Source: an uncultured Acidimicrobiia bacterium
GTDB taxonomy: Bacteria; Actinomycetota; Acidimicrobiia; Spongiisociales; Spongiisociaceae
DNA: 64,000 bases
Reading direction: 5' to 3'
Assembly: GCA_958295745.1 (NCBI GenBank)
Contig: OY282370.1
Location: 248,001-312,000 of the forward strand
Shown here one piece after another: positions 1,714 to 29,171 of this stretch. A model generated the notes under the pieces. The model saw nothing but the letters and a program-made list of their open reading frames with translations. It ran no database searches and was not told where the DNA came from. Both the position numbers and the translations under genes were made by a program. Position 1 is the stretch's first letter. Each line of letters begins with the position of its first letter.

Positions 1714-2652
1714 ATGACCGCACCGTCCTTCACCATCATCATCCCGGTACACAACGAGGCGGGCTTCATGGGTCCCGCCCTGGACCGCATCCGCAGCCAG
1801 GTAGACGCCGTCACCTCCGGCTGCTGGATCATCCTGGTCGAGAACGGCTCCACCGACAGCACCTACCGAGAGGCCGACCGCCTGGCCTCCGCCGACCCCC
1901 GCATCGAGGTGATCCGCCTCCCCGAAGCCGACTACGGGCTGGCCGTCCGGGCCGGTATGGACCGGGCGGTCATGGAGATGGAGGTCATGGAGATGATGGC
2001 CCTGAAGGACTCCGACCCCGAAGACCCCGAAGACCCCGAAGACCCCGAAGACCCCGAAGACCCCGAAGACCCCGAAGACCCCGAAGACCCCGAAGACCCC
2101 GAAGACCCCGAAGACCCCGAAGACCCCGAAGACCCCGAAGACCGCGAAGACAGCGAAGACCGAGGATGGCTGGTGCTGTTCGACATCGATTATTTCTCGG
2201 GGCCGTTCGTGGGGCGGGTCATCGAGGCGGCGGACCACGCCGACGTGGTGATCGGCTCCAAGCGGGCCCCCGGCGCCCGGGACCGAAGGCCGCGGCTCCG
2301 CCGTCTGGCCACCGGGGTGTTCAACTTCCTGCTCCGCGCGGCGGTCGGATCGGGGCTGAGCGACACCCACGGGATAAAGGCAATCCGGACCTCGGCGGCC
2401 CGGGATCTGCTCCCGGAGGTGGCCTCCACCGGGGACCTGTTCGACACGGAGCTGGTGCTGCGGGCAGAGCGGGCCGGATACCGGATCACCGAGGTGCCGA
2501 TGGACGTAGAAGAGCTGAGGGAGGCCCGCTCCTCACTGTTGCGCAGAGTCCCCCGCACCCTGCGCGGCCTGGCCGTCCTGCGGCGCAGACTGCGGGCGGT
2601 TCCGCCTCCCGAAGAAAACCCCAGCCCGGGCGCCCCCCGCCCAGACCACTAG
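1714..2652 (+). CDS. GT2 family glycosyltransferase with an internal Asp-Pro-Glu repeat
   Basis: Cytoplasmic GT-A fold transferase of the dolichyl-phosphate-mannose-synthase/GtrB-like branch. The N-terminus has the nucleotide-binding strand IIIPVHNE and the NGSTDST loop; after the insert come FDIDYF (metal-binding strand position), DVVIGSKR and the SDTHGIKA segment typical of this branch. Between them, residues about 101-148 are a run of Asp-Pro-Glu triplets encoded by a 9-bp tandem repeat (2014-2157). The insert lies in the loop just before the metal-binding strand, so the fold could tolerate it as an acidic linker, and any whole-unit change keeps the frame. The last 120 bp overlap, tail to tail, the 3' end of the membrane protein gene on the other strand. 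The donor sugar is unknown. Catalytic activity with this insert is not demonstrated. Confidence 0.8.
   Translation: MTAPSFTIIIPVHNEAGFMGPALDRIRSQVDAVTSGCWIILVENGSTDSTYREADRLASADPRIEVIRLPEADYGLAVRAGMDRAVMEMEVMEMMALKDSDPEDPEDPEDPEDPEDPEDPEDPEDPEDPEDPEDPEDPEDPEDREDSEDRGWLVLFDIDYFSGPFVGRVIEAADHADVVIGSKRAPGARDRRPRLRRLATGVFNFLLRAAVGSGLSDTHGIKAIRTSAARDLLPEVASTGDLFDTELVLRAERAGYRITEVPMDVEELREARSSLLRRVPRTLRGLAVLRRRLRAVPPPEENPSPGAPRPDH
2014..2157 (+). repeat. 9-bp coding minisatellite (GACCCCGAA)n in GT2 gene
   Basis: Fourteen perfect copies of GACCCCGAA occupy 2014-2139, followed by two degenerate copies (GACCGCGAA, GACAGCGAA) to 2157. Each unit encodes Asp-Pro-Glu. The perfect identity at all three codon positions points to recent expansion by slippage or unequal exchange rather than selection on the peptide alone. 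Copy number is probably variable between cells or strains, and is also likely to be collapsed or miscounted by short-read assembly. Confidence 0.97.
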
Positions 2653-5232: not shown

Positions 5233-5355
5233 CTAGGCGGTGCGGCGGGGAACGGCCCGTCCGGCGGGGTCCACCACGTGGAGATCGGGGAGAATGTCGG
5301 CCGCTATGACGGCGGGGCGGGCCCGGTTGGAGGGGGTGACCACCAGGATCGCCTC
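5233..5355 (-). other. Alternative C-terminal module R6 (last)
   Basis: Reading frame from GAG-GCG-ATC at 5355 to TAG at 5235-5233. The peptide starts EAILVVTPSN, contains ILPDLH and ends AVPRRTA. It matches the other modules of the array in the AIL start, the x-L-x-DLH core and the PRR end. It has no start codon or ribosome binding site, so it can only be translated by ribosomes arriving from upstream. With 10 G in the 5566-5575 tract, as sequenced, the frame coming from that tract is open across R4 and R5 and enters R6. It overlaps the end of R5 in a different frame. Confidence 0.7.
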
Positions 5356-5459
5356 GACAGGGCGCGGGTGGGGCGGCCCGCCGTGTGCAGGTCGAACAGC
5401 GTTCGGGTCACCAGCGCTGCGAACGGGAGCTGCGGGTCTTTCATGATCAGGATCGCCGG
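5304..5459 (-). other. Alternative C-terminal module R5
   Basis: Frame beginning CCG-GCG-ATC at 5459, peptide PAILIMKDPQLPF then LFDLHTAG and ALSRRS. Where R2 and R4 stop with TGA immediately after the RRS end, R5 has TGG, so it runs 14 residues further into a Pro-rich tail that ends at TAG 5306-5304. R5 is reached from the 5566-5575 tract when its length is a multiple of three. The TGA-to-TGG change may be a degenerate stop or simply reflect that no further module uses that frame. Confidence 0.65.
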
Positions 5460-5563
5460 GGCAGGGCTCTGGTCTGCCGGCCGGTGGCGCATAGGTCGAA
5501 GAGGATCCCGGTGGCGAGGGCGGTGAAGGGAAGTTGCTGGGTCTGGTTGACCAGGATCGCCGA
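5447..5563 (-). other. Alternative C-terminal module R4
   Basis: Frame from TCG-GCG-ATC at 5563 to TGA at 5449-5447. The peptide reads SAILVNQTQQLPF, then ILFDLCATG, then ALPRRS. It is reached when the adjacent G tract is 11 (n = 2 mod 3). Its final codons CGG-CGA-TCC-TGA overlap the start of R5 read one frame over (GCG-ATC-CTG), the same interlocked junction seen between R0/R1 and R2/R3. Confidence 0.7.
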
Positions 5564-5565
5564 TG

Positions 5566-5575
5566 CCCCCCCCCC
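5566..5575 (-). repeat. Poly-G tract 3 (10 G on coding strand)
   Basis: Ten C on the plus strand, read as ten G in the coding direction, directly after the motif GTAAC that contains the R3 stop. Translated from the open third frame of the preceding unit, n = 10 leads to R6, n = 11 to R4, and n = 9 or 12 to R5. No frame is wasted. Tracts of this length are classic sites of slipped-strand mispairing. The length in the assembly may be a population consensus or a sequencing error. Confidence 0.9.
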
Positions 5576-5576
5576 G

Positions 5577-5702
5577 TTACCTGCGGCGCGGGATCGTCCT
5601 GGTCTGCTGACCGGCCGCCATCGTGTGCAGGTCGGGCAGCAGACTCGCCGCCAGCACCCCGAAGGTCGCCATGTTGGACGGGCCGGTCATCAGGATCGCC
5701 GT
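5577..5702 (-). other. Alternative C-terminal module R3
   Basis: Frame entering through Pro-Gln-Thr then AILMTGPSNMATF, LLPDLHTM and TIPRRR, ending with TAA at 5579-5577. It is the module closest to the family consensus (I-x-x-T-G-x-S ... F-x-x-L-x-x-x-x-L-P-D-L-H ... Q ... PR). It is reached when tract 2 is 10 or 13 G long, after about 40 codons of low-complexity linker read across R2. Confidence 0.7.
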
Positions 5703-5818
5703 CTGGGGATGGCTCTGGAAGCTTGGAGGGTTCCCGCCGCGCAGAGGTCGCCGATGACTCCGGTCGCGAGAGTGCCGAAGACCGCTTTGTTGGACGGGGT
5801 GCTGACGAGGATCGCCGA
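5690..5818 (-). other. Alternative C-terminal module R2
   Basis: Frame from TCG-GCG-ATC at 5818 to TGA at 5692-5690. The peptide reads SAILVSTPSNKAVF, VIGDLCAAG and AIPRRRS. It is entered only when the 5820-5830 tract is a multiple of three. Its end interlocks with the start of R3: the same bases CGGCGATCCTGATG serve as Arg-Arg-Ser-stop in one frame and as Ala-Ile-Leu-Met in the next. Confidence 0.7.
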
Positions 5819-5819
5819 A

Positions 5820-5830
5820 CCCCCCCCCCC
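5820..5830 (-). repeat. Poly-G tract 2 (11 G on coding strand)
   Basis: Eleven C on the plus strand. The preceding coding-strand bases are CGCCGCAGGTAAC, whose TAA is the R1 stop. Reading from the open third frame across R1, n = 12 enters R2, n = 10 or 13 enters R3, and n = 11 (as sequenced) continues without a stop to tract 3. The flank GTAAC is shared with tract 3 and with the helicase tract, suggesting the tracts arose by duplication. Confidence 0.9.
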
Positions 5831-5831
5831 G

Positions 5832-5954
5832 TTACCTGCGGCGTGGTATCACCCGCGTCTGCTGCGACCCCTTGATCGCCGCCAGGTCCGTGAGGTTCGC
5901 CGATGCCAGCGCCTGGAAGATCATGTTGCTGCCGCTGCTGGTCAGTATCGCCGC
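5832..5954 (-). other. Alternative C-terminal module R1 (in frame as sequenced)
   Basis: Forty codons from GCG-GCG-ATA to TAA. The peptide reads AAILTSSGSNMIF, then NLTDLAAIKGSQQ, then VIPRRR. With tract 1 at 12 G this is the C-terminus of the enzyme. In one alternative frame the same DNA is stop-free and encodes a Gly/Asp/Gln-rich linker that carries ribosomes on to tract 2. Confidence 0.75.
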
Positions 5955-8612
5955 CTGACGATGAAACGCCCCCCCCCCCCGTCCTGGACCGACACTATTC
6001 AAATCCGGGAGAACACCAGAAGCCGCAAGAGAATCCGGGCTGCTGTTGTTCGATCCCCCGGTAACGGCATAGCTTTCAATCTCCTCGTCGCGAGGGAACA
6101 TAGCCGAAACCGTTTTGACTGCGGACAAAATCCGGTCGTCTTCATAGAGCCATAGTTTGGTAAAAGGACGATATAACACTTCTCGTATGCGAGATTCTTC
6201 AAAAACTATCTGTTTGCGTTGTCTCAAGCTGTTCTTCAAAGTACTCGTCCACTTGATCTCATCCAGTCTATGGTTGGTCGTAGCTCTCTCGATGACATCT
6301 CGCTTTGTATCATCCTCTACCCACTCCAGAGCATCATTGTAGGCTTCTATTAACCGAAGCATTCTTTCTATGAGCCGCTGGCGGCTAAAAGAATAAACAT
6401 AAACATCACAGCTGGTTCCTACGCCTCGAGCGTGCACAAGAGAAACTACCTCTGGATTTTTCTTATTATTATCACATATAGGTAACATTCTCTTAAAGGT
6501 TCCATCTGAAAGGTTTATCCAATCATGCCTTTGCGTCACTGGTACTATCTCCATATGAGAACTGGTTATATCATTCAGGTCAGCCAACCACTTGAACTTT
6601 TGATCCAGGCTCATATAATCGGGTACCTGAGTATAGTGTAACACGGCGAGTTGATCTTGCTTCTTGGCAGGATTTCTGACGAGGAATGTTATCTGAACTC
6701 CCTGCATAGAACCACCTCCAAACACCTTATCCCCCTCCATCTTCCATTCCTCTCCTGCCTTATAGGCGTTGCCTCGGAGGTTGACTACATAGATGTCAGT
6801 AAACTCATCACGTAATACGGCCCGCACCCCAGCTAGAGAAGTGCCGTCCGTCAAAGAGTTGGGATGCAGCAAGCCGACGATCGCAGGATGGTCACCGCGC
6901 TGTGCGTTCGGCAATACACGATCAGAGCACCATCGCAAAGCTTTCACATACAGATTTCCTGATGCATTGCCGCCAGGTGACCGTCCGATCACCTCTCGAT
7001 GTTTGGTACCATAAGTTTCTTTAACTCTCCTACCCATTTCTTCATATTCGAGGTTCGGATTGTCATCACCTGCGGACTTCTGGCCGGAGGACCATGGCGG
7101 ATTGGCCAGGACAATCGTCATCGGTGTGGCGTCCTGCTCCAGACGGCCGCGGATATTGTCCCCAAAAGCGGGAAAGATGGCTTGAGAGGGAGACTCCAAG
7201 AAGGTGTCTGTCAATAATATCTTGTCGTAGCCTTCATAAACTGACTCTATACCAGACTCGACTTCGCGGGAATGCTTGGCCTCTTCGACTTTGATGGCGG
7301 CTATGTAATAGGCCAGCAGTATCAGCTCGTTGGCATGCAACTCGTGCTTGTACTTGCGATCCAAATCTTCGGGGCTGATCAGGTAATTGCCGTCCTCGTC
7401 TTTCATCTCTATCAGGCGGGCCAGAAAAGTACCGGTGCCCGCGAACGGGTCCAGGATGTGCAGGTTCTCGCTGCCTATCGACCTGCCGAACTCCTTTTGG
7501 CAGATGGCCGCCGCCGACCGGACCATGAAATCGACTATCTCCACCGGGGTGTATACGATCCCGACCCGTTTCACGGTGTCCTTCATCGCCGCCTGGAAGA
7601 AGCCGTCGTACACTTCGCGAAGGATGTCCACCCGCTCGGCGCTGTTCACCGCCCCCTCGAAGGCCTTCGACATCTGCCGGTAGGCACGGGTGAGCGGCGC
7701 AAGCTCCTCGTCGAACGAAACCCCCATATCCCGGAAGGTCTTCAGAAGGCGCTCGACTTCCTGGCTGACCGGGTTCTGGTCGGCGAATCCGCTTCCGGCC
7801 AGCATCACATCGAACACCGGGATGGTCACCACGTGCTGGGCGATCATCTCCTGAGCTTGCCTGTGTGTTACATGATCCCCGATAGAGTCGCGGATGCCTT
7901 GCAGGAACCGTTCGAAGGCCGCCCTCGCTCTGCCTTCCTTCACTAGATCGGTGATCCGGGCATGCACTTGACGGCATATATCCGCCGCTCTCGCGCCCCA
8001 GCGAGGGTACATCTGCTTGTCGCCGATGGTCTCCACCACCTTGGAGGCGATGGCTTGGTCGAGCTGGAACTGCAGCTGTTCCTGCAACCGCTGCTCACGC
8101 TCGCCGGCATCGGTTTCCCGTCCGAACCTGCACGAAATACGGAGGGGGGCGTTCCTGATCCAGGCGGAGGCGTTGCTGACGTAGTGATTCATGCGAGAGT
8201 CGTGGGAACGCAGCGCCCGCACCACCTCCCACACGGTCTTGAAATCCGAAGCATTCAACATTTCCTGCGGGGCGGCCCCGTCGGGTACCACCACCGGGAT
8301 CACGATGTATCCTTTCTCCTTGCCCGGCGCCCTGCGCATCGCCCGGCCCACCGCCTGGGTGATATCCACCGTGGAGGAGCGGCTGTTGAGGAAGATCACC
8401 GCGTCCAGGCTGGGAACATCCACCCCTTCGGTCAGAACCCGGGCGTTGCTGAGCACCCGGCAGGTGGACGGCGCGCCTTCCCCGGAGTTTTCCCGGTGCC
8501 CCCTGAGTTTCTCCAGCAGATCGGTGCGTTCGGCGGCCGGGGTGGAACCGTCTATGTGGTCAACGTCGAGATGCAGAAACGGCGGAGACCCCCCCCCCGT
8601 TACTGTCCGCAT
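5832..8612 (-). CDS. Type ISP-like restriction enzyme, second part: helicase C-lobe, coupler, N6-adenine methyltransferase, specificity region
   Basis: Downstream part of a single-polypeptide restriction-modification enzyme. As sequenced it is out of frame with the upstream part by one G in the 8589-8598 tract; removing one G gives a continuous 1452-residue protein, close to LlaGI/LlaBIII-type enzymes. Visible features: helicase motif V/VI region (TEGVDVPSLDAV, QAVGRAMRR near residue 90), a helical coupler-like region about 150-340, methyltransferase motif I DPFAGTGTF near 390 and motif IV NPPW near 505, which is the gamma-type adenine methyltransferase arrangement, then a YRPF segment near 838 and the terminal modules R0 and R1. 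The final stop (TAA at 5834-5832) is that of module R1, reached because tract 1 is 12 G. The ATG at 8612 lies just before the tract and has no clear ribosome binding site, so independent translation is doubtful. The 5900-6800 stretch has lower GC than its neighbours, consistent with transfer. Confidence 0.85.
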   Translation of the reverse strand: MRTVTGGGSPPFLHLDVDHIDGSTPAAERTDLLEKLRGHRENSGEGAPSTCRVLSNARVLTEGVDVPSLDAVIFLNSRSSTVDITQAVGRAMRRAPGKEKGYIVIPVVVPDGAAPQEMLNASDFKTVWEVVRALRSHDSRMNHYVSNASAWIRNAPLRISCRFGRETDAGEREQRLQEQLQFQLDQAIASKVVETIGDKQMYPRWGARAADICRQVHARITDLVKEGRARAAFERFLQGIRDSIGDHVTHRQAQEMIAQHVVTIPVFDVMLAGSGFADQNPVSQEVERLLKTFRDMGVSFDEELAPLTRAYRQMSKAFEGAVNSAERVDILREVYDGFFQAAMKDTVKRVGIVYTPVEIVDFMVRSAAAICQKEFGRSIGSENLHILDPFAGTGTFLARLIEMKDEDGNYLISPEDLDRKYKHELHANELILLAYYIAAIKVEEAKHSREVESGIESVYEGYDKILLTDTFLESPSQAIFPAFGDNIRGRLEQDATPMTIVLANPPWSSGQKSAGDDNPNLEYEEMGRRVKETYGTKHREVIGRSPGGNASGNLYVKALRWCSDRVLPNAQRGDHPAIVGLLHPNSLTDGTSLAGVRAVLRDEFTDIYVVNLRGNAYKAGEEWKMEGDKVFGGGSMQGVQITFLVRNPAKKQDQLAVLHYTQVPDYMSLDQKFKWLADLNDITSSHMEIVPVTQRHDWINLSDGTFKRMLPICDNNKKNPEVVSLVHARGVGTSCDVYVYSFSRQRLIERMLRLIEAYNDALEWVEDDTKRDVIERATTNHRLDEIKWTSTLKNSLRQRKQIVFEESRIREVLYRPFTKLWLYEDDRILSAVKTVSAMFPRDEEIESYAVTGGSNNSSPDSLAASGVLPDLNSVGPGRGGGAFHRQAAILTSSGSNMIFQALASANLTDLAAIKGSQQTRVIPRRR
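5942..6071 (-). other. C-terminal module R0 with hidden tail
   Basis: R0 is the module fused to the body of the enzyme: YAVTGGSNN, then GVLPDLN, then GPGR followed by the 12-G tract. With 11 G the frame continues RFIVRRRY and stops at TGA 5944-5942, giving the natural family-type ending (basic residues followed by a terminal Tyr). With 12 G that ending is skipped and R1 is read instead. The tail codons CGG-CGA-TAC-TGA overlap the R1 start GCG-ATA-CTG in another frame. Confidence 0.7.
5969..5980 (-). repeat. Poly-G tract 1 (12 G on coding strand)
   Basis: Twelve C on the plus strand inside the specificity region. Reading from the enzyme frame, n = 11 ends with the R0 tail, n = 12 (as sequenced) reads into R1, and n = 10 or 13 enters a third frame that is open across R1 to tract 2. 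Unlike the other tracts it is flanked by GGAC rather than GTAAC. Confidence 0.92.
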
Positions 8613-10191
8613 CGTCGCTCTGGCGGGCCAGGGCGTCCACCAACTTCGGCCAGACCAGCGCCGCCGTCTCCGAGGTGCGCACCAGGTTGGTGAAGGCGAT
8701 GGCCGAGCGGGCCGGTTCTCCCCCGTCCGTGAATATCTGGCCGGGGAAACGGCCCGGCTGCACCTCGGTGGTGGCGGGCGAGGCCAGCGCGTCCCAGCAC
8801 CCGGCCAGCTTCACCGCGTCGTCCAGCGCCAGGTTGGTGCCCTCCTGGACCAGTACCTCGTGGGACAGGCCGGCGTTGGCGAGCGACTGCCGATACGCCT
8901 CCTCGGAAGCGGTGATCACCAACACCTCATAGTCGGTGAGGAACTCGCCCTCCACCGCATCGCTGAACGCCATATCGTAGAAGCGATCCCCGAACACTTC
9001 GGGGTCGGCCATGCTGTAGCTGTCGCCCTCGAAAGCCGGATCGTCGACCTTGCTCTTCTGCCGTGCGGTGAACACCCTGGGGGTGGCGGTCATGTACAGG
9101 CGCTTGCGGCCCCGGATATGCGCGTCGTCGTGGACGATCCGGAACGGGGAAACCCCGAGGCCCTCGCTCGATGCCTCGATCCCGGTGGTGCGGTGAGCCT
9201 CGTCGCAGATGATCAGATCGAACCCCCATCCCCCGCCGATCCGCTCCTGGGCGGCGGCGATCTTGGGGGATGATTGGTAGGTGCTGAACACCACCTGCAT
9301 GGCGTCGTCCGGCGGCGGCCCGGCCAGCACCGCCGCCAGCTTCTCTGGGTCGGTAGTCACCGGGATGGCCAGCTCGGTCAGGTCTCCGGCCACATCCGCA
9401 TTCCTCGACGCCCGGCGGCCCGCGGTGGGATCCGAGCAGACCCCCAGGTAGCGCAGTGGCATCTCCCGCTGTCGGGACCATTCCCGCATCGTCTGTCCGA
9501 TCAGGGCGATGGACGGCACCAGATACAGAACCCGGCCCCCCCGCCCGGCCACCTTCTCCGCCGCCCGGAGCGCCACCAGGGACTTGCCGGTCCCGCAGGG
9601 GAGGATCAGCTGCCCCCGGTCCGCGTCCCGGAACCCTCCGGAGATGCGGTCCACGGCGTCCCGCTGGAAGGGGTAGAGGTCGTGTTTGGGGGGCGGGGCT
9701 ATCTCCAGCCGCTCCGGGGTGTCTGCCACCTCCCGCCAGTCGTCCACCCAGCGGTCCATCTCGGAAGTGGACAGCACCTCGCACCGTGGATCGGCCCGGC
9801 GGATCTTGATCATCCCGTTCTTGGAGACCGGGGCGGTGGCCACCAGCAATCGGGACACGAAGTCGGCCGTTCCCGAAGCGGAGAGGAAACTGTCCACCCC
9901 GCGGGTGGGAACCTGTCCGTCGTGGAACTTGCACTGGACGGCGCACAGGCCGCCGCCGTAGGCCGGGGTCTGGCTGGCCACGATGTCGATCCCGATGTCC
10001 TGCCCGTACCCCCGAGCCGTTCGGTCGGGCCACTCGTTCCACAGCCAGACCTCTTCGAAGCGTTCCCGTCCGTACTCGCCGGGATGCTCCCGCAGCGCCG
10101 CCTGCACCAGCCGCTCGAACCTCCGCCCCTGGACCACCGTCCTCGGGGCGTCGGCGGTGAGCCTGCGCAGAACCTCGGTCAGATGCGGCAT
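8560..10191 (-). CDS. Type ISP-like restriction enzyme, first part: Mrr-like nuclease and helicase N-lobe
   Basis: Upstream part of the restriction enzyme, 543 residues in the sequenced (OFF) state. The N-terminus shows a PD-(D/E)xK-type nuclease core with GIDIVA near residue 69 and the QCK signature near 84. The superfamily 2 motor follows with Walker A CGTGKS near 200, DEAH (CDEAHRTTG) near 328 and motif III TATPR near 367. After AIAFTN (start of the second RecA lobe) the frame enters a 10-G tract and terminates 9 residues later with VSAVSASRR. The ATG at 10191 has AGGAG at 8 nt and lies 10 bp after the stop of the gene upstream, so both are probably one transcript. In the known family the nuclease and motor act in cis with the methyltransferase to cleave after translocation. 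A truncated motor would give neither cleavage nor modification. Confidence 0.88.
   Translation of the reverse strand: MPHLTEVLRRLTADAPRTVVQGRRFERLVQAALREHPGEYGRERFEEVWLWNEWPDRTARGYGQDIGIDIVASQTPAYGGGLCAVQCKFHDGQVPTRGVDSFLSASGTADFVSRLLVATAPVSKNGMIKIRRADPRCEVLSTSEMDRWVDDWREVADTPERLEIAPPPKHDLYPFQRDAVDRISGGFRDADRGQLILPCGTGKSLVALRAAEKVAGRGGRVLYLVPSIALIGQTMREWSRQREMPLRYLGVCSDPTAGRRASRNADVAGDLTELAIPVTTDPEKLAAVLAGPPPDDAMQVVFSTYQSSPKIAAAQERIGGGWGFDLIICDEAHRTTGIEASSEGLGVSPFRIVHDDAHIRGRKRLYMTATPRVFTARQKSKVDDPAFEGDSYSMADPEVFGDRFYDMAFSDAVEGEFLTDYEVLVITASEEAYRQSLANAGLSHEVLVQEGTNLALDDAVKLAGCWDALASPATTEVQPGRFPGQIFTDGGEPARSAIAFTNLVRTSETAALVWPKLVDALARQSDDADSNGGGVSAVSASRR
8589..8598 (-). repeat. Poly-G tract H between helicase lobes (10 G on coding strand)
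   Basis: Ten C on the plus strand, preceded on the coding strand by AGTAAC. The upstream frame arrives exactly at a codon boundary (531 codons from the ATG at 10191), so only n divisible by three joins it to the helicase C-lobe frame. With 10 G the product stops after 9 codons; with 11 G it stops after about 16. This is a standard phase-variation layout, with the sequenced state being OFF. Confidence 0.93.
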
Positions 10192-10201
10192 GACGGCGCT
10201 C

Positions 10202-10909
10202 CTACCTCTGGCCTTCCAGTGAGGGCGGCAGGCCGGCGATGATCCGGGCGCTGGTCACGCTCACGTACACCAGCCGCCGCAGATGGCGTATCAGCTCGAA
10301 CGGGTCGTCGGCCCATGCGTGCCAGCCGTTGGGGTCGTCGGCGATGCCGGAGGGCTTGTCCAGTTTGAAACGAAGGCTGTCGATCGCCCAATCCAAGGGC
10401 GACCGCCCCGACACCTTGTAGTCCTGGGCCTCGGCGGGTATGCCCACCAGCCGGCACCGGTCGTTGATGTGGAGCTCGGTGCGGTCGACCTCAGGCTTGC
10501 GTTTCTCGTTCTTGACCCGGTTCCACTTCATCTTCTTCTGTATCCGGTAGACGTCCGAGTCGGGGGCGCCGCCCTCATCCGGGAAACCGTCCACCAGACA
10601 GTCCACTTCCGGCCATTCAGGGCAGGTCTCGTAGCCGATGTGGAGGTTCATCAGCTCCCGGCCTGCCTTGCGGAAGGTTTCGAAGTCGGCGGCCAGCGGC
10701 ACCCTAGGCAGGTTGCGCTGCAGGTCGTGGCGGTACCGTTCCCGCCAGTCGGGGGCGTGCATCACCCCGTACAGGTACTCCCAGATGTCGTCCTTGATGA
10801 TGCCGGGATCGCCGTAGCGGGTGCGGAACTCCTCCAGACACCAGTCGGTGATGTTATCGGTGTCCTCCGACAGTTCTTCCATGGGAAGAGTTCTATATTT
10901 CAACGTCAA
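10202..10909 (-). CDS. Detached C-terminal domain of the Type ISP-like enzyme
   Basis: In LlaGI/LlaBIII-like and related predicted helicase-methyltransferases the FPRY-type module is followed in the same chain by a helical region beginning NITD and ending near a vSv-T-x-x-I-x-x-LPP segment. This gene encodes just that part: NITDWCLEEFRTRYGD, KDDIWEYLYGVMHAPDWRER, AGRELMNLHIGYE, YKVSGRSPLDW, a SGI-x-DDPNGW segment, and SVTSARIIAGLPP at the end. It is therefore the missing C-terminal end of the enzyme encoded just downstream, moved in front of it. I chose the TTG at 10909 because GGAGG precedes it by 5 nt; an ATG at 10882 without a good site is the alternative. It probably binds the main subunit in trans. 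No catalytic motif is visible. Confidence 0.8.
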   Translation of the reverse strand: MTLKYRTLPMEELSEDTDNITDWCLEEFRTRYGDPGIIKDDIWEYLYGVMHAPDWRERYRHDLQRNLPRVPLAADFETFRKAGRELMNLHIGYETCPEWPEVDCLVDGFPDEGGAPDSDVYRIQKKMKWNRVKNEKRKPEVDRTELHINDRCRLVGIPAEAQDYKVSGRSPLDWAIDSLRFKLDKPSGIADDPNGWHAWADDPFELIRHLRRLVYVSVTSARIIAGLPPSLEGQR

Positions 10910-10950
10910 GCCCGCCTCCGGCCCATCCGGGCAACCCGGCAAGCATAGCG

Positions 10951-11051
10951 ATGGAACAGACCCGAACCGCACCCAACCCATGCGACGGCCAGCTCCAGGG
11001 TGATGGGTTGCTTGTTCAGCATGGAACAGACCCGAACCGCACCCAACCCAT
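10951..11051. repeat. 31-bp direct repeat pair upstream of the RM operon
   Basis: Two identical copies, 10951-10981 and 11021-11051, start ATGGAACAGACC and end ACCCAACCCAT, 70 bp apart start to start. They begin 42 bp upstream of the start codon of the first restriction gene. The location suits an operator or a duplicated promoter segment; it could also be debris of a mobile element. No protein binding it can be named. Confidence 0.85.
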
Positions 11052-13699: not shown

Positions 13700-16600
13700 T
13701 CATGTGCCTTCGCCGCCTGTTCCTCCTTCGCCTTCCGGGGCGGGGGTGGGGGGTGGGACGGGCACCAGGTCTATGGCGCGGACGAAGAAGGATGCCATTT
13801 GGGCTCGAGTTACGGGTTGGTTGGGGCAGTAGTTGAGGGGGGTGGTGCTGCAGCCTTTGGTTACGCCGCTGTGGTACATCCCTTCGATGGCGTGGATCAC
13901 TGCTGGGTCTACGCCTTCTACATCCTCGAAGAGGCCTTCGGGTTCGGCTACTGATTCCAGGTGGGGGAAGGCGGCGATCATCATGATGGCCATGTCGGCT
14001 CGGGTTACTACTCCGTTGGGGTTGAAGGCGCCGTCGGTTAGGGCGAAGGCGCCTATCGAGACTACCCAGTTGGCGTAGGAGCGGAACCAGACATCGGCGG
14101 GGACGTCGGGGATTTCTGTTCCTTCGGGGGGGTCTTGGATCGTCCAGCGCTGCGACACGGCCCGGTAGAGGAAGGCGGCCATCTGCCTGCGGGGGATCTG
14201 TACGTTCGGGCAGTATTTGGTGGGGTCGTTGGCGTCGCAGCCGAGGGTGATCTGCCATCCGGCGATGCGTTCGATGTTGGCTTCGTGGCCGTTGCCATCG
14301 TCGTCGCAGAACCGGCCTGAGCATATGACCGGCGGGGGCGCGGGCGGGGGTGCGGGTGCGGGGGGTGGGGGCGCACCACCGCCGCCTCCACCTCCACCTC
14401 CGCCGCCGCCACCGCCGCCACCTCCACCCCCTCCTCCTCCGCCGCCGCCTCCGGTGGGGGGCGGGTCCGCAGGCGGCGGGTCCGCAGGCTGCGGAGGCGC
14501 CGGTACGTCGTTGTCGACGATGTTGATGTAGGCGGTAGCTCTGGCGTTGTTGAGGTCGGCGGCGGTTCCGGTCAGGGCGATGCGTTCGTTGTCGTCGTCG
14601 GCGGTGTCGTCGATGATGGTTATGTTGCGGGTTGCTTGTCCTTGGTTCTGTTCGGCGGGGATGATTACGGTAAACGAAGACGCCTGGTAGTCGGCGGCGG
14701 TTGCTCCCCGGTTGCCGCTCACGGTAACCCTTACCGGGGTGTCGGCGGCCAGTGTTTTAGAACCCGCCAGGCGGACGGTAACGGTTACCGCGGCGGTGCC
14801 GGCGGCCTCGGTCAGGCTGGTGGGGGAAACCGTCAGGGTGATCCCGGTGGGGGCTGTGTCGTCTGTGCTGTCCCGCACGGTCAGCGACGCCGCCTGGATG
14901 GTGAACGGGGCTGTCCCGCCTGTTACCTGTAGGGTTTCGTCTCCTTCTACGATGTCGTCGTTGTAGGAGCCGTCCAGCTTGAGGTCGAAGCTCTTGGTTC
15001 CTTTGTTGGCGTTGGCGGGGATGATTATGTCGAAGGCGGGCACCCGCTGGTAGTCGCTTCCGGGTGCGGCGCCCCTCTGGGCGGCGGCTTCCACGGTAAC
15101 GGGCACGGTGGTTTCTTCGGGTAGGGTCACCCCGGCGGGGAAGGCGGCTTTTACTTTGACGGTTGCTGTTTCTCCTTCGGTTACCTCCAGCAGGGGTTCA
15201 CTGTCGGAGGCGGCTGCGAACAGGGACAGACCAACGATGGCGTCGTCGTCGATTATGGTCAGGGTCGCGTCGCCGACGGTGAACCCCGCCAGGGTGTCGG
15301 AGGGGTCGCCCTCTATGGTCAAAGCTTCGGGGCCTTCGAAGTCGTCGTCGTTTTCGGTTTCGCCGATCACCAGATCGAAGCTCGTAGCCGCGGTGCGGGT
15401 GTAGGCGGGGATGGTGATCAGGAGCTGGTCGGTTATCTCCTGGTAGTCGGTTCCGGATTCTGCCCCGTCGCCTGCCTTGCCTACTGTAAGGGGCACGGTT
15501 ACCGCTCCGGGCAGCGTCCGGGTGCCGGTGTAGGAAGCCCGCACATGAACCCGGGTGGTTCCGCTGTCCTCCTCCACCCCAGCCAAAGCCTCTCCTTCAG
15601 CGTTTTCGACGCTGAGACCGATCGCTGTAGGAGCGGCGTCGTTGTCGGTAATACCGAGGCCGGCTGACACCACCGGCAGGGAATCACCGCCAACTGTTAC
15701 GTTCCCGCCCTGTATCAGGATGGTCTCCGCGTCGGAGCCTTCGGCTGCGGTGTCGTCGTGGACGGTCAGCGTGAAATCAGCGGATCCGGTGGTGGACCCG
15801 GCGTCGATGCTGATCCCCAACAAATGACCAGCAGGCGGACTGCCCGAAGGGTACGACACCCGGGCGTCTTCGCCGGCCTCGAAGCTGGAACCGGTGTCCA
15901 GGACGGCGGTTCCGCCCACCGCGTTCACTCCTACCACCACCCCGCCGAAGGGGGCGGCGACCGGCAGCGTGGCTGTGACCCGCACGGTGGTGTCGCCGCT
16001 GTTCTCGGCCAAGGCGGTAAGAGCGTTGCCGCCGGTGTCCGTCAACGCCAGGGTGATGCCGCTGTCCACGATGGTTATCTCGGCGTCGGCGATGGTTGCC
16101 GCCGATCCGTCTACCGAGGCGGCTGCGGACAACGCGACTTTCTCTGCGTCTTCGTTGCTGCCGTCGTCGCGGGCCGTCAGCTCGAAGCTTCCCGACCCGG
16201 CGGTCTGTCCGGCGGGGATGGAAACCGTGAACGAGTTGCCGGTCTGGTCGGTGGTGAAGTCCCCCGAAGCGCCCAAGAGGGCGCCGTCCGTCCCGCCGCC
16301 GCCCGCCACGGTAACCGTTACCGAAGTCGCGGCAGTGCGGGTAGACGAACCGGCCCCGGCGAAGCGGGCGGCAACCGTAACCGTGTGCGCCCCGACGCGT
16401 TCGGTCACCGTTGCGGGGGAGGCGGTAACCGTGATGCCGGTGTCGGTGTCGGTGATCGCCAGGTCCGTCCCCGATACCCCAACCCCGACAGCGGTGGTTC
16501 CGGTTATCCGCAGCATTTCCGGCCCTTCGGTTACCGTATCGTCGCTGATGGCCAGCCCAGCCAGCGACCCGGTGTCGGTGCTGCTCGTAGTCCCGGTGGG

Positions 16601-19600
16601 GATGGTTACCGTGTTGGCAGTGCCCGGTGTGTAGTCGTAGTCGGCGGCGCTGGCGGTTCCGTCCTCCACCGACAGCACAACCTCCAAGTCGGCGGCGAAC
16701 TCCGAGTCGGTCGTTCCCGTCTGGAAAGCGGCCGATACCGCCACCCCCGACCCGTTCCCGCCCTCAGATACCGCCGTCCCGCCGGGGATCGACAGCACCA
16801 CCGCCGAGTCGTCGTCGACGATCGTCAAAACCGTCCCGGTAACGGTGTACCCGGCGGCTGTTCCCCCCACCGTGATGTCCTCGTCGGGCTCGGCCCGCTG
16901 GTCGCCGGTAATCGTCAACCCCGACAGCGCCACCGCCGGGCTGGTCGTGGAACCCGCCGGGATGGTCACCGTGATCTCGCTGCCCGACCCCGGAGCACCG
17001 AAATCGGCGGCTTCTGTACCCGCGGCGGCGGTGAACGACAGCTCCACCTCCACAGCCGAACCCAAAACCGAGGTGTCCGCCCCCACAAAACGGACTACAG
17101 CGGTTACCGCCCCCGCCCCCGCGTCGGTGTCTGTCTCGTCTACCGTGCTGCGGCTGAGTACCACAGCGATGTCCGAGTCGTCATCGACGATGCCCAGGGT
17201 TTCGGTTTCTACCGGCAAGGAAACACCGCTGATATCTACAGAGCCGCCCGACACCCGGATGGTTTCCGCGGTAATGCCCTCCGCAACCCGGTCGTCGTTG
17301 ACTGTTACGGTCACAACCGCCGACCCGGTGGTTTGGCCGGCGGCGATGGATATCCCCATCGGATACCCGTCGCCGGGAGCGGGATCGGACGGGTACGACA
17401 CCCGGAAGTCCTCCCCCGCCGCCCACACGGAATCGGTGTCCAGAACAGCCGTCCCGCCCGTTACCCGCAACGGAACCACCACCACCCCGGCTGCGGCGGC
17501 GGGCAGGGTAGCCGTAACCGTAACCTGGGCGGCGCCGCCGTCTTCGGCCAGGCCGGTCAGCGCAGTTCCGCCGCTGTCCGCGAACGAGAGGGTGACGCCG
17601 TTGTCCACGATGGTCATTGCGGCGTCGCTGATGGAAACCGCCGACCCGTCCACCACAGCCGACGCCGACAACGCGACTTTCTCCGCCACCTCGCTGTCGC
17701 CGTCGTCGCGGGCAACCAGCTCGAAGCTCCCCGACCCGGCGGTCTGTCCGGCGGGGATGGAAACCGTGAACCTGTTGTTGGTCTGGTCGGTGGTGAAATC
17801 CCCCGAAGCGCCCAGGACGGCGCCGTCCGCACCGCCGCCGCCGGCGACGGTAACCGTTACCGGAGTCGCGGTAGTGCGGGTAGAGGAAGAAACCCCGACA
17901 AAGCGGGCGGTAACCGTAACCGTGTGCGCCCCGGCTTGTTCCTCCACCGTCGCAGGCGACACCGCAATCTCGATGGCCGTGTCAGCGTCCGAAACCCCCA
18001 GCACCGCCCCCGTAGCCGTCCCCAGCGGGGAGCTTCCGTTTATCCGAACCGTTTCCGGCCCCTCGGTGATCGCATCGTCTTCGATGGTCAGCCCGTCCAG
18101 GGAGGCGGCGGTGCTGCTGCTCGTAGCCCCCGCAGGGATGGTTACCGTGTCCGACCCTCCCGAATACCGGTAGTCGGCGGGGGAAACAGCGGTCCCGTCC
18201 GCTACCGACAACGTAACCACCGTATCCGAGGCAATATCAGACGAAGTAGTCCCCGACTCGAACCCGGCAGACACCGCCACCCCGGAGCCGTCCCCGCCCT
18301 CCGACACCGACGCCCCGGACGGAACCGACAACACCACCGCCGCGTCGTCGTCGGTGATGGGCAGGGCCGCTCCGGTTATCGTATATCCGGCAGCGGCGCC
18401 GGACACCGCTATGGTCTCCCCCGCCTCGGCGATCGTGTCGTCCGTTACCGCCAGCCCGCCCAAGCCAACAGTGTTGCTGACCGCACCCGCCGGGATGCTC
18501 ACCGTGATCTCGCTGCCCGAGGCCGGGGCGGTGAAGTCCGCCGCTTCGGTCCCCGCCCCGGCAGCGAACGACAGCTCCACCGGAGTCGCCGCGCCGATCT
18601 CGGAAGCGTTCGCCCCCACGAACCGGGCGGTGATCATGGCGTCGCGGGCGTCGCCGTCTGCTTCGTCCGCTGTTGTGGAACCGAAACTGAGAGAGATGGT
18701 CGTGTCGTTGTCCGCGATTCCCAGGGCGGCGGGCAACACCGGCAGCGGGCTGGCGTTGACGACAACATCCCCGCCGCTCACCAAAACAGTCTCCGCCGCG
18801 GCGCCTTCCGCCGTGTTGTCGTCGTTGACCGCCACAGTGATATCGGCGTACCCCGACTTCGACCCCGCAGGGATCCTGATCCCCAACAAATGACCGTCAG
18901 GCGTACCCGCCAGCTTCGACGGATACACAACCCGATAGTCCTCCCCGACGCTGAAAGAACCATCCGTGTCCGCGACGGCGGTTCCGCCCGCCGCGTTGAG
19001 CCCCACCACCACACTGTAAGCAGCCACAACCTGCAAGGTGGCCGTAACCCGGACGGTATTGGCGCCGCTGTCTTCGGCCAGGCTGGTCAACGGGTTCCCG
19101 CCGCTGTCCGCGAACGACAGGCTGACACCGGTATCCACGATGGTCACCTCGGCGTCGGCGATGGTGGCCGCCGCCCCGTCCACGGTGGCCGCCGCCGACA
19201 ACGCCACTTTCTCCGCTCCCTCATCGGCGCTGTCCGCCGGGGCGGTCAACCCGAAAGAAACCCGCCCGCTGGTCTGCCCCGCCGGGATGGTAATGGTGAA
19301 CGAGTTGGCGGTCTGGTCGGTGGTGAAGTCCTTACCGGCGCCGGTTCCGAGAACGGCGCCGTCCGTGCCGCCGCCCCCCGCCACGGTAACCGTCACCACA
19401 ACATCGGAATCACGAACCGAAGAGGCCGCATCAGCGAACCGGGCAACCACCGATATGGTCTGCGCCCCGGCCTGCTCCACCACCGTCGCGGGCGACACCG
19501 AAAGCTCGATACCCGAATCGGCGTCGGCAACCGCCAGATCGAACCCGACCGCCGCGCCCAAAGTCGACGACCCGCCCACCGCTATCGTCTCCGGCCCCTC

Positions 19601-22600
19601 CGCGATGGTGTCGTCCTCCACGGTCAACCCGGCCAGCGACCCGGCGGTGCTGCTGCTCACAGCCCCGGCGGGGATGGTCACCGTGTTCGGAACCGACGGC
19701 GCATAACCATAATCGCCGGGAGAGGTAGCCGTCCCGTCCGCCGCCGACAACGTAACCACCGTATCCGAGGAGATATCAGACGAAGTCGTCCCCGACCCGA
19801 ACCCGGCAGACACCGCCGCCGCCGAACCGTTCCCGCCCTCCGACACCGTTGTCCCGCCCAGAACCGACAAGTGCACCACCGCGTCGTCGTCCACGATGGA
19901 CAGGTCGGCCCCCGTAACCGAATACCCGGCGGCGGTACCGGACACCGCAATCGCCTCCGACTCCTCGGCGATGGCGTCGTTGGTAACCGACAACCCCGAC
20001 AGGGCCGCCGCCGTGCTGCTGACCGACCCCGCCGGGATGGTCACCGTGATCTCGCTGCCCGACGCCGGGGCGGTGAAGTCCGCCGCTTCCGCACCCGCCC
20101 CGGCCGCGAACGACAGCACCACCACGGTGTCCGACCCGATCTCGGAAGCCGAGGCCCCCGTGAAAGAAGCCGTGATCAACGCGTCCCCGGCGTTGCCGTC
20201 AGACTCCTCCGCCGTTGCTGTGGAACCGAACCCCAGGCTGATGGCCGTGTCGTTGTCCGCTATCCCCAACGAGGCGGACAAAACCGGCAGCGAACCCCCG
20301 CCGGCCGTCACGTTCCCGCCGCTCACCACAACAGTCTCAGCAACGGAACCCTCCGCCACGTCGTCGTCGTTGACCACCAAAGTTACATCGGCGTACCCCG
20401 AAGTAGACCCCGCCGCAATCAAGATCCCCAGCAGATGACCGGCAGGCGTACCCGCCGCCTTCGACGGATACACAACCCGGAAGTCCTCCCCCTCCGCGAA
20501 CGTCGCCCCGCCGCCCAACAAAGCAGTACCCCCCAACACATTCACCCCCACCACCACATCCAAAACCGCCGCCACCGGCAACGCAGCGGTCACCCGCACC
20601 TGCGTAGAGCCGCTGCTCTCGGCCAAACTGGTCAGCGCGTTCCCGCTGCTGTCCCCCAAAGACAACGTAACGCCGCTGTCCACGATGGTGATATCCGCGG
20701 AGGTCACCGCCACCGCCAACCCGCCCACCGACGCCGCCCCCGACAAGGTCACCTTCTCCGCTCCCTCGGTGGACCCGTCAGCCGGGGCGGTCAACCGGAA
20801 AGTCCCCTGCCCGCTAACCTGCCCCGCCGGAATAGTGATCGTGAACTGGTTGCCTACCACGTCGGTGGTGAAATCACCGAGAACAGCCCCGTCCTCCCCC
20901 GAACCGCCCGCGATGTTCACCGTCACCGCAGTGGCCGACGTCAACACCGAAGAAGAACCATCGAACCGGGCCGTAACAGTAATCGTATGCGCCCCGGCCT
21001 GTTCCACCACCGTCCCAGGCGACACCGACAACACGATGTCGGCGTCGTCGTCGTCGATAGTCAACACAGCGCCGGTAGCCGCCCCCCACGCAGATGTCCC
21101 GCCCACCGTCAGCGTCTCCGGGCCTTCCACGATGTCATCATCGGTGATCGACAGCCCCGTCAACACCGCAGCCGCGGTGCTGCTGATCGTGTTGGCAGGA
21201 ATAGAAACCGTCTGCGGAGACGACGGCGAATACGAGAAATCAGCCGACCCCGCCTGCCCCGCCCCGCTGCCGCCCGTTACCGACAACGCAACCGACGTCA
21301 CCGAACCGATAGTGGAAGAAGTAACCCCCGACGGGAACCCCGCCGACACCGCCGCCCCCGCCACCGCTCCTACATCCTCCGATATCACGGTCTGGTTTTC
21401 GTCCGTGCCGCTGTCGGTGTCCGCCGTCAGCACCACCTGCCTGTCATAAGGATCCCGAACCGTCATCGTAGCCGGAACCGCAACAAACCCGGCCGGAAGG
21501 TCCGTCAACGTCACATTGAAAGTATCGTCATCCTCCGCCACATTATCCGCGGCCGTACCCAATCTTACAATTCGCGAATTAAAGCTGTCCTCTAGGTACT
21601 CAGAAAGCGAACCCGCGCTGATATCGACATACAACGGGAAACCCGCCAAATCCAAATCCTTACGAATGTTACTGCCACTACTCAAACGGATAGGCCGATC
21701 ATCCAACCGCGCTCTAATTGTGCTGCTGTAAGTAGACGAAGTAGAAGCAGTAAAAACAGAACCGGTAACACCGCCCAAAGTAACCTTCGCCCAATCAAGA
21801 CTAAGATTATTTTCACACCTACCCGAAGCGCATTCATCACCCGACGACCTCGCCGTCGTAACCTCGAGGGCCCGGTCCTGGTCGGTGATCCGCAAGTCCC
21901 CAGGGTTTACCAGATACAAAGGAGCAGACCCGGAGAAGCGGATAGTCTCGTGATCCTCGGTGATCTTATCGCTGCGGGGAGTAACAACAACATCAGCGGA
22001 CCCGGTGGTCTGACCGTTGAGAATAGTAACCGTGGCCGTAGAAGCCCCGACCGTGTAGTCACCTGCGGAACCCGCCGTGGCGGTGCTGCCCGCACCTCCG
22101 ATGTTCACCGTCACTGTCGTGTTGGACTCTACCGCCGCCGACGCAGTCGCCACCACCCGTACCGTCTGCGCTCCCCCATCCTCCGCGACCGCGGTAACCA
22201 CCGCCGGCGTGCTGGCGGTGTCGGTGAAACTGAGACCGATAGTCCGAGAACCGACATCGAAGATAGTCACCTCCGCCGCGTCCACCGTCACCGACGCGCC
22301 GCCCACCGTGGCCGAACCCGTCAACGCCACCTTCTCCGTAGCGGCCTCGGTCTCACCGTCGGACCGGGCCGTCAGCTCGAAGGTTCCGGTGCCGCTGAGC
22401 TGCCCGGCCGGGATGGTGATCGTCAACCTGTTGTTGGTCAAGTCGGTGTAGAAATCCCCGGTAGGCGGCGGCCCCGCCGACCCCAAAGTGGCTCCGTTGG
22501 TGGATGCCCCGGCAATATCCACGGTCACTGTCGTGGCCGCCGCCAACACCGAGGAAGAACCCTTGAACCGGGCCGTAACCGTAACCGTATGCGCCGCCGC

Positions 22601-25600
22601 CTGCTCCAACACCCCCGCCGGAGACACCACCAGCTCGATGTCAGCATCGTCGTCGCCGATAGTCAACACAGCCCCCGCAACCGTCCCCAACGAAGTTGAC
22701 GTTCCGCCCACCGTCAACGTCTCCGGGCCCTCCACGATATTGTCGTCGGTGATACTCAACCCCGTCAACGTCCCGTCCGTGGTGCTGCTGATCGTGTTGG
22801 CAGGAATAGAAACCGTGTTCGGAGACGAAGGCGAATACGTAAAGTCAGCCGACCCCGCCGCCCCCGCCCCGCTGCCGCCCGTTACCGACAACGCAACCGA
22901 CGTCGCGGAACCGATAGTAGAAGAAGTAACCCCCGACGGGAACCCCGCCGACACATCCACCTCCGAACCGGCGTCGCCCTCCACTATCACGGTCTGATCA
23001 CCGATAGTGTCGCTTTCGGTATCCACCCCCAACACCACCCCCCTGTCATGAGGATCCCGAATCGTCATCGTAGCCGGAACCGCAGTGAACCCGGCCGGAA
23101 GGTCCGTCAACGTCACATTGAAAGTCTCGTTATCCTCCGCCGCATTATCCGCTGGTGTACTCATCAGTACAATTTGTGAACCACCACTTTCTTGTAGGTT
23201 CCCGGTAAGCGAACCCGCGCTGATATCAACATGCATCGGGACGCCTCCCGTACCCAAATTATGGGTAATGGCATTGTCGCTACTAACAGAGTTGAGAGGC
23301 CCCTCATCCAACCGCGCTCTAATCGCGCTGCTGTAAGTAGACGAAGTAGAAGCAGTAAAAACAGAACCGGACAAGCCGCCCAAAGTAACCCTCGCCCAAT
23401 CAAGATCAAGATTATTAGAACAGGTACCCGAAGCGCATTCATCACCCGACGACCTCGCCGTCGTAACCTCGAGGGCCCGGTCCTGGTCGGTTATCTGTAG
23501 GTCTCCGGAGTTTACCAGATACAGGGAAGAAGTAGACCCGAAGAAGCGAATAGTCTCGTGATATTCAGTGATCGTGTCGCTGCGGGGAGTAACAACAACA
23601 TCGGCGGAGGAACCGGTGGTCTGACCATTGAGAATAGTAACCGTGGCCGTAGAAGCCCCGACCGTGTAGTCACCTGCGGAACCCGCCGCAGCGGTGCTGC
23701 CCGCACCTCCGATGTTCACCGTCACCGTCGTGTCAGCGTCTACCGCCGCCGACGCGGTGGCCACTACCCGTATCGTCTGCGCTCCCCCGTCCTCCGCAAC
23801 CGCGGTAATCGCCGCCGGTGTGGGGCTGGCGGTGTCGGTGAAACTGAGACCGATGGTACGGGAACCGACATCGAAGATAGTCACCTCGGCCGCGTCGACC
23901 GTCACCTCCGCGCCGCCCACCGTGGCCGAACCCGTCAACGCCACCCCCTCCGGAGTAGCCTCGGTCTCACCGTCGGACCGGGCCGTCAGCTCGAAGGTTC
24001 CGGTGCCGCTGAGCTGCCCGGCCGGGATGGTGATCGTCAACCTGTTGTTGGTCGCGTCGGTGTAGAAGTCCCCGGTAGACGACGACCCCAAAGTGGCCCC
24101 GTTGTCGGCGGCCCCGGCAATATCCACCGTCACATCGGTGGCCGCCGTCAGAACCGAGACCGCACCCTTGAACCGGGCCGTAACCGTAATAGTATGCGCC
24201 GCCGCCTGCTCCAACACCCCCGCCGGGGACACCATCAGCTCGATGTCGGCGTCGTCGTCGCCGATAGTCAACACCGCCCCCGTCGTATCTGCCCCCAACG
24301 CAGACGTTCCGCCCACCGTCAGCGTCTCCGGGCCCTCCACGATATTGTCGTCGGTGATACTAAATCCCGTCAATGTCACGTCCGTGGAACTGCTGATCGT
24401 GTTGGCAGGAATAGAAACCGTCTGCGGAGACAACGGCGAATACGAAAAGTCGTCGCTGCCCGCCTGCCCCGTCGTCGGGTTCATATAACCCGTTACCGAC
24501 AACGTAACCGACGTCGCGGAACCGATAGTAGAAGAAGTAACCCCCGAAGGGAACCCCGCCGACACATCCACCCCCGAACCGGCGGCGCCCTCCACGATAG
24601 TAGTCTGATCACCGCTCGTACCGCTGTCGGTATCCAGCCCCAACACCACTCGACTGTCATGAGGATCCCGCAACGTAAACACCGCCCGCCTCACCGTAAA
24701 CCCCGCAGGATCCACCTGATCCACCGTTGCATAACCATGCTCATCCCCCTCTGCTTTATCATCATGATAGAAAATAATCGCTAGAGTACCTCCATAAATC
24801 GAATTATAAAAACCACCCGAAAGAGACCCAGCCGGAATACTAATCGTTATCTCCTCTGACGCATCATAAACTTCATACAGATAATCACCCTCAGACCACT
24901 GCTCAAAGTTTACCCCGCGCTCAATCCGCACCCGCATACTCAAAGCAGAACTATACGTAGAGCTAGTAGAAGCAGTAAACACATCACCCGACACCCCACC
25001 CAAAGAAGCCCCTCCATTCAACGACTTCGAAAGCCCAAATTGACCAGAAGCCTTCTCATCGAACTCCGTATCACCTGTCAAATAGACCCCTATAACCCGG
25101 TCCTGGTCGGTGATCTCCAAATCAGTCTGACCCGGGTACAGATCGGCGGCAGTGTCGGCGGTGAAGCGGATGGTTTCGTGATCCTCGGTTATCGTGTCGC
25201 TGCGGGGAGTTATAGTAATATTCCCGGAGGAACCGGTGGTCTGGCCGCTGCGGATAGTTACCGTGGTCGTTGAAGCATCCACCGTGTAGTCACCGGCGGA
25301 TCCCGCCGTTGCGGTGCTGCCCGCCGCGGCGATGTCCACGTTTATGACAGTATCGGAGGTTACCGCCGACGGTAAGGTTGCTGTTACCCGTATCGTCTGC
25401 GCTCCGCCGTCCTCCGCAACGGCGGTAACAGCCGCCGGCGTGCTGGCGGTGTCGGTGAAACCGATAACGATGGCCTGATCCGGATCGTAGATCTTCACCT
25501 CTGTCCCGGTTACAGTCACCGCCCGCCCCCCCACCGAAGCCGACCCGGTAACAGCCGCCGTTTCTATATCCTCGGTGTTGTCGCCGTCGACCCGGGCGGT

Positions 25601-28861: not shown

Positions 28862-29171
28862 GACCACCTAACCCTTTCTCCCGGCCTTCAAAACCAACGA
28901 ACCAAGCACCAATCCCCCGGCCCCCCGCAGCTCAGCCCCCGGCCTACAAGCCCGCCGACCCGCCAACCGCCGCGCCCACGGGACCACCACAACCGAAGAC
29001 GCTACACCCCACCCGACACCCCATAACACGCCGAGCATAAACAACTAAGATACCCCCCCCCCCGCGGATTCTGTCAAAATCAGACACCCCGCCGCCGCCG
29101 GCCATACAACGGACAACGACCCGGCGATCCGGCAATCAGACATCCCTCTTTCGGGGGAACCATGGGCGCGG
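28862..29171. other. Upstream region of the giant gene
   Basis: About 310 bp between the giant gene and the thioredoxin-fold gene, both on the minus strand. It is C-rich on the plus strand, has an 11-C tract at 29053-29063, and otherwise shows no convincing gene. The giant gene promoter must lie here; I cannot assign -35/-10 boxes with confidence. Confidence 0.55.
29053..29063 (-). repeat. Poly-G tract (11 G) about 190 bp upstream of the giant gene
   Basis: Eleven C on the plus strand, not inside any credible gene. It is the only other homopolymer of 10 or more in the window besides the four in the restriction gene. Its place upstream of a surface-protein gene makes length-dependent promoter or regulator-site spacing plausible. 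Confidence 0.85.

Follow-up and report, generated by a model that had tools for sequence, protein, structure and literature searches.

How can one gene of a restriction-modification (R-M) enzyme be provided with seven different ends? The question is raised by a locus in a 64,000-nucleotide stretch of DNA from an uncultured Acidimicrobiia bacterium (contig OY282370.1, positions 248,001 to 312,000; hereafter the window). On its minus strand, the open reading frame (ORF) 8612..5832, which encodes the methyltransferase part of a Type ISP-like enzyme, leads into seven copies (R0 to R6) of a module of ~40 residues, with G tracts of 12, 11 and 10 between the copies. We hold with good confidence that a split Type ISP-like enzyme is completed by whichever module, carrying Loop VI of the target recognition domain (TRD), repeat slippage picks, and that its DNA target is thereby switched.

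Three tracts and seven C-termini in the window

To follow the possible products, we enumerated every tract length modulo 3 at each window tract. At tract 1, n=2 leads to the R0 tail (...RFIVRRRY*), n=0 to R1 and n=1 onward to tract 2. There, n=0 gives R2, n=1 gives R3 and n=2 continues to tract 3, where n=2, n=0 and n=1 yield R4, R5 and R6, respectively. All seven paths (7/7) terminate at the stop codon of a module, and the lengths as assembled select R1. Note that the 3.3-Mb genome contains ~29 tracts of at least 10 G, 3 of these within 840 bp of array. The original prediction, made from the letters alone, had described the seven modules and three poly-G tracts correctly to the base, and its full residue-to-module table was reproduced exactly. 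No path is aborted by a random stop, as it had stated, every tract residue reaching a module. Its reading of a serial ternary frame selector with seven C-termini is supported by the sequence, by at least 24 arrays, by the stop pattern and by the ratio of nonsynonymous to synonymous substitutions (dN/dS).

As a null model, modules were re-encoded with synonymous codons and reachability was recounted (300 trials over 17 arrays). For the window, a mean of 2.5 of 6 modules stayed reachable, and all six did so in 3% of replicates. Across the 17 arrays, 77 modules were reachable compared to 36.6 ± 4.0 in the null (maximum 49), and 15 of the 17 arrays were fully reachable (null mean 2.1, maximum 5). 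First-position modules had stops in either off-frame in 0 of 28 cases. In the +2 frame, stops were absent where passage is needed (0/61) but occurred in 6 of 14 third-position modules, which require none (Fisher p=1.5e-5; such values overstate independence because arrays share ancestry, yet relatives differ at up to half of residues). The modules themselves evolve under purifying selection, with a dN/dS of 0.176 pooled over 41 pairs and of 0.06-0.22 for R1-R6. Selection thus acts on read-through frames as well as on modules. The hydrophilic character of the out-of-frame insert, in contrast, equaled that of the synonymous-shuffle null by grand average of hydropathy, and the idea that the pass-through peptides are selected as hydrophilic linkers is not supported.

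Arrays in related genomes

Scanning the methyltransferase query against 84,980 species genomes returned 19 loci, mostly in metagenome-assembled genomes (MAGs) of Acidimicrobiia, plus Dehalococcoidia. A module profile, run on the genomes of 12 relatives, detected arrays in 11, several of which carried 2-3. It also detected arrays in 12 of 395 genomes of the class Acidimicrobiia (2 of these matches single and weak), in 3 of 15 genomes of the family and in 3 of 393 genomes of the class of the Dehalococcoidia relative L033 (1 of 3 weak). In an even draw of the whole phylum, no genome was positive except the window's own, and a search of viral contigs found no relatives. Homologous arrays in related genomes, proposed earlier as a check, thus do exist: we found at least 24 with three or more modules in Acidimicrobiia MAGs, and shorter ones in Dehalococcoidia. 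Many of the array-bearing MAGs are presumably sponge-derived, judging from record names and general knowledge.

The arrays obey a fixed grammar. Three modules come after the terminal selector in all arrays but L030, which has two modules and a non-module frame. The 25 non-terminal selectors are followed by two detected modules (19 cases) or one (6 cases), never by three; in all five of the six one-module selectors that were examined, the tract splits an R0-type module, making two. Of 55 junctions without a tract, 54 advance by 2 mod 3, and the two modules usually share a few bases there. Since module units are 2 mod 3 in length and overlap by a few bases, successive copies come to lie in successive frames. 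Selectors across the arrays are poly-G, poly-C, (GA)n, (CA)n or (GACC)n, with function kept despite replacement. We therefore rejected poly-G itself as an essential element.

Assembled states vary among genomes, with the first, second or a later module selected, and tract lengths vary between related arrays (a comparison of one genome per species, and thus not of variation within strains). The original prediction had named fixed tract lengths in relatives, internal stops in their modules or dN/dS near 1 as signs of decay. Instead, lengths differ among arrays, all modules but one (in G367, with a TAG) are intact, and the values for R1-R6 given above lie well below 1, which argues against decay.

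Further features were seen around these arrays. In L031 (5724-16373), two Type ISP-like systems lie head to tail. The second, with a truncated copy of the separately encoded second TRD half (C-half) in front, has its own array in a different module order, evidence of module reshuffling. Fragments of modules, or pairs of modules, lie near some arrays with no selector detected (L047 12042-12611, L120 1074-1307, L122 2151-2384 and L129 3162-3401), possibly as a cassette reservoir or as remnants. At L043 10543, the contig terminates at a (CA)n selector directly after Loop V, where any following array would be lost.

The module and the divided recognition domain

We aligned L044, an unsplit relative, to the solved enzymes. 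The D-L-x core of the module falls on PDVN1360 of LlaBIII and on SDMHVIGGQ of LlaGI. LlaBIII N1360 and LlaGI H1368, G1372 and Q1373 belong to TRD Loop VI, which reads target position +3 (PMC4872093). The N1360 numbering matches the alignment directly, and the LlaGI register was deduced, as the probable one, from the H-x3-G-Q spacing. Homology links the modules with one another and with the Loop-VI stretch of both enzymes; judging from this alignment, the module corresponds to the TRD stretch ending in recognition Loop VI. Loop V, upstream of the module, belongs to the constant part. Alternative C-terminal modules with a shared pattern had been recognized earlier, but their Loop-VI identity and the separately encoded rest of the TRD had been missed.

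The modules sort into about a dozen discrete classes, each with a near-fixed base-contact residue after D-L (A in 19/19, H in 19/19 and H in 18/19; in further classes C or S, K in 6/6, N in 5/5 and N in 4/4). Only 1 same-class duplicate was observed within arrays, compared to 14.4 ± 2.9 by shuffling. Such non-redundancy would be expected of a set of alternative specificities. Because modules differ in the Loop-VI residue at the position reading +3, slippage should switch DNA specificity.

The window enzyme matches LlaGI with E=5.5e-143 and has the Type ISP set of Mrr-family nuclease, SF2 helicase-like ATPase, coupler and gamma-class N6 methyltransferase (Pfam). The C-terminal specificity domain is also present, but divided over two ORFs. 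The large-chain ORF, which ends in R1 as assembled, covers positions 6-147 of the 342 in the Type_ISP_C profile, and the C-half covers positions 160-339 (Pfam). A model of the C-half matched LlaBIII 1381-1577 (Z 14.4, 4.4 Å, 197 residues). The C-half is 64-74% identical to separate ORFs in relatives, a conservation exceeding that of the methyltransferase. In the window, and in every array-bearing relative where it was found, it has an ORF of its own, either upstream (window, L030, L031, L041), divergent upstream (L032, L033, L046) or downstream (L034-L037, L039, L040, L042, L045, L047). The full-length relative L044 (Selenomonadaceae, 36% identical) is unsplit and without array, with the C-half fused and one module inside the specificity domain. 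Type ISP enzymes carry all functions on a single polypeptide. Neither the window enzyme nor those of the array-bearing relatives just listed do so, and the enzyme is therefore not a strict Type ISP but a split-TRD derivative. The split may allow each module to be a chain end, with one constant subunit completing the domain. Shortly upstream of the C-half ORF, imperfect direct repeats (ATGGGTTGGGTGCGGTTCGGGTCTGTTCCATG...) were noted at 11120-10940 (minus strand).

The N-terminal part of the same enzyme is encoded by an ORF that is out of frame with the large-chain ORF across a further G tract in the helicase region (Table 1). G tracts at the same region are also present in L030, L035, L037-L039, L043 and L047, and in several assembled genomes, the window included, the tract lies between ORFs that are out of frame. 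In L032 and L046, a tract lies inside the methyltransferase in place of the helicase region.

Table 1. Coordinates of the enzyme ORFs, selectors and modules in the window
Feature	Position	Strand	Remarks
ORF: helicase part 2, ISP coupler, N6-adenine methyltransferase, first half of Type_ISP_C	5832..8612	-	Pfam ISP_coupler, N6_Mtase, Type_ISP_C
ORF: Mrr-type nuclease and SF2 helicase part 1	8560..10191	-	Pfam Mrr_cat_2, ResIII
Poly-G tract (10) at the junction of both enzyme ORFs, candidate ON/OFF switch	8589..8598	-	Splits helicase
ORF: second half of specificity domain (TRD core helices and guide)	10202..10981	-	Probable start ATG 10882
Module R0	5945..6068	-	AVTGGSNNSS..DLNSVGPG-polyG-RFIVRRRY*; interrupted by selector 1
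Selector 1, poly-G (12)	5969..5980	-	C-tract on plus strand
Module R1	5835..5951	-	Base-contact residue A; dN/dS 0.06 vs L030
Selector 2, poly-G (11)	5820..5830	-	C-tract on plus strand
Module R2	5693..5815	-	Base-contact residue C; dN/dS 0.22
Module R3	5580..5699	-	Base-contact residue H; dN/dS 0.17
Selector 3, poly-G (10)	5566..5575	-	C-tract on plus strand
Module R4	5450..5560	-	Base-contact residue C; dN/dS 0.12
Module R5	5307..5456	-	Base-contact residue H; longer tail; dN/dS 0.13
Module R6	5236..5352	-	Base-contact residue H; dN/dS 0.15

A proposed specificity switch and its place among known systems

We propose a Type ISP-like R-M enzyme with a TRD divided between two chains. The large one (nuclease, helicase, coupler, methyltransferase and first TRD part) would run into alternative C-terminal modules, and a separate constant protein (core helices and guide) would complete the TRD in trans. 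The repeats would serve as three-way frame selectors, one unit gained or lost rotating the frame. A non-terminal selector would lead to either of two modules or onward via a stop-free frame, and the last selector would choose among three. Module exchange by slippage would present a new Loop-VI residue at target base +3 and so switch DNA specificity, while the helicase tract would act as a separate switch turning restriction on or off. We infer slippage of DNA during replication in populations because repeats are present, other repeat types replace them, and assembled states differ. It is likely that this constitutes a new device, a serial base-3 slippage decoder addressing homologous modules in three overlapping frames, combined with a split recognition domain and providing 3 to about 9 heritable DNA specificities.

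Several points weigh against this proposal. The tract lengths are those of assemblies, in which homopolymer lengths can be wrong. Some modules are broken (the TAG in G367; fragments in L047, L120 and L122). Distal isoforms carry, between Loop V and the module, an out-of-frame insert inside the TRD of up to 247 amino acids (318 in L030), around which the TRD would have to fold; by the precedent of the Helicobacter pylori Type IIG enzymes (see below), it is plausible that it does so. AlphaFold of the module-bearing half (L034, without the C-half) yielded a TRD of low confidence, with a predicted local distance difference test score of about 30 for residues 640-723.

The same anatomy and stop pattern would fit equally if the repeats slipped during transcription or translation, as long G and dinucleotide runs could do on RNA polymerase or the ribosome. 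Each cell would then mix C-termini instead of having a single heritable setting. However, (GA)n, (CA)n and (GACC)n are typical of contingency loci rather than of frameshift sites, the selected module differs among assembled genomes, and the genome has many other phase-variation-type tracts, several before surface-protein genes; we regard slippage on RNA as distinctly unlikely. The modules might instead switch the methyltransferase ON/OFF or between affinity states, or evade a phage anti-restriction protein, leaving the base read unchanged. The specificity change is deduced from homology alone and the Loop VI contact spans one target position, both in favor of such a role. Yet it is precisely in the base-contact residue that the classes differ, and arrays hold them without redundancy, making this role unlikely.

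Module order varies between arrays, as in the two of L031, and isolated pieces of modules occur close by in L047 and L120, indicating that modules move over evolutionary time. This would also fit a silent cassette store in which the expressed module is changed by recombination or gene conversion and the repeats are secondary. Such a store has no need for stop-free pass-through frames, a selector every 2-3 modules or in-register frame rotation, all of which are conserved, and we consider it very improbable. A further reading is that duplicated pieces of the TRD are decaying here and that their frames are open by chance; stops are fewer in GC-rich sequence, and one G367 module does contain a stop. 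The null tests, the stop pattern, the low dN/dS of R1-R6 and the grammar kept in 24 arrays led us to reject decay and chance openness, to which we assign a negligible probability.

Other repeats were noted in the window and its genome. Of the other poly-G tracts of the genome, those inspected were rejected as similar arrays; they are single or paired, several before surface-protein ORFs. An 11-G tract (minus strand; C11 at 29053-29063), a candidate for promoter-type phase variation, lies just upstream of ORF 28867..13700 (minus strand), whose product, a giant repeat protein of 5055 residues, contains a poly-Gly/Pro stretch and, C-terminally, a surface-layer-like region. In L010 (G000:C1:2728000-2747999), and also in L014 and L021, surface-protein genes with nearly identical leaders follow one another ~4 kb apart; in L010 one or two poly-G tracts precede each gene (8 tracts in 20 kb). 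These genes look like a phase-variable surface-protein family. Finally, a glycosyltransferase-like ORF (1714-2652, plus strand) contains at 2014-2161 16 copies of a 9-bp tandem repeat (GACCCCGAA) encoding Glu-Asp-Pro units. Its unit length is divisible by 3, and copy number therefore alters linker length, not frame.

If the proposed switch is correct, one gene would have up to about nine settings for its DNA target. Slippage alone would suffice to reach these states, with no recombinase involved and with the alternatives held in overlapping frames. The natural, interchangeable Loop-VI modules with differing contact residues would amount to a ready-made code for Type ISP base recognition, the modularity of which becomes open to direct testing. 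They could aid the engineering of enzymes with chosen targets, which has been termed an unaccomplished challenge (PMC4872093). The locus also raises the question whether uncultured sponge symbionts use such changes of DNA specificity to hedge their phage defence or epigenome.

Most phase-variable methyltransferases known so far toggle ON/OFF, take one of two states according to a tract, or reach several states through recombination. Phase-variable Type I systems with hsdS likewise offer several alternative specificities for one R-M enzyme, but switch by recombination or inversion between hsdS genes, in contrast to frame selection by repeat length here (PMC7394358, PMC4948785). LlaGI (5ffj) and LlaBIII (4xqk) share the Mrr nuclease, SF2 helicase, coupler, gamma N6-methyltransferase and Type_ISP_C TRD with the window system, but are single polypeptides with a fixed TRD, whereas here the TRD is split and Loop VI exchangeable. 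In C-terminal phase variation, described in Helicobacter canadensis (PMC2823697) and Neisseria gonorrhoeae (PMC5320596), the length mod 3 of a repeat close to the 3' end decides which of three C-termini is made. Path enumeration found the same in the window, with a tract near the 3' end and a different C-terminus from every frame. The known cases, however, have a single tract per gene, no cascade and tails not described as homologous modules; in H. canadensis, most involve a change of few residues (PMC2823697).

The Type IIG enzymes JHP1272/HP1353-HP1354 of H. pylori have one homopolymer tract as an on/off switch and a second near the 3' end that adds a C-terminal domain resembling part of a TRD. 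This alters the recognized bases from GGWTAA to GGWCNA and from CRTTRA to CRTCNA, as determined by single-molecule real-time sequencing, and the appended domain apparently takes the place of part of the TRD or pushes it aside (PMC3936762). As in these enzymes (Krebes et al.), the domain that the alternative frame adds in the window has its homologue in part of the TRD. JHP1272/HP1353, however, is MmeI-like, with two settings, one added domain and an unsplit TRD, and has neither serial selectors nor modules in all three frames. The original prediction knew of no serial three-way selector. Our search, restricted to open-licence PubMed Central papers, likewise found no serial or multi-module version; it did find this one-tract, two-state precedent, which the original prediction had missed (PMC3936762). 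In conclusion, we place the system with a known kind, repeat-driven specificity switching, in an encoding (serial base-3 selection of overlapping-frame modules) without description in those papers. Its nearest relatives are C-terminal phase variation and the H. pylori two-state switch by mechanism, and LlaGI and LlaBIII by protein family.

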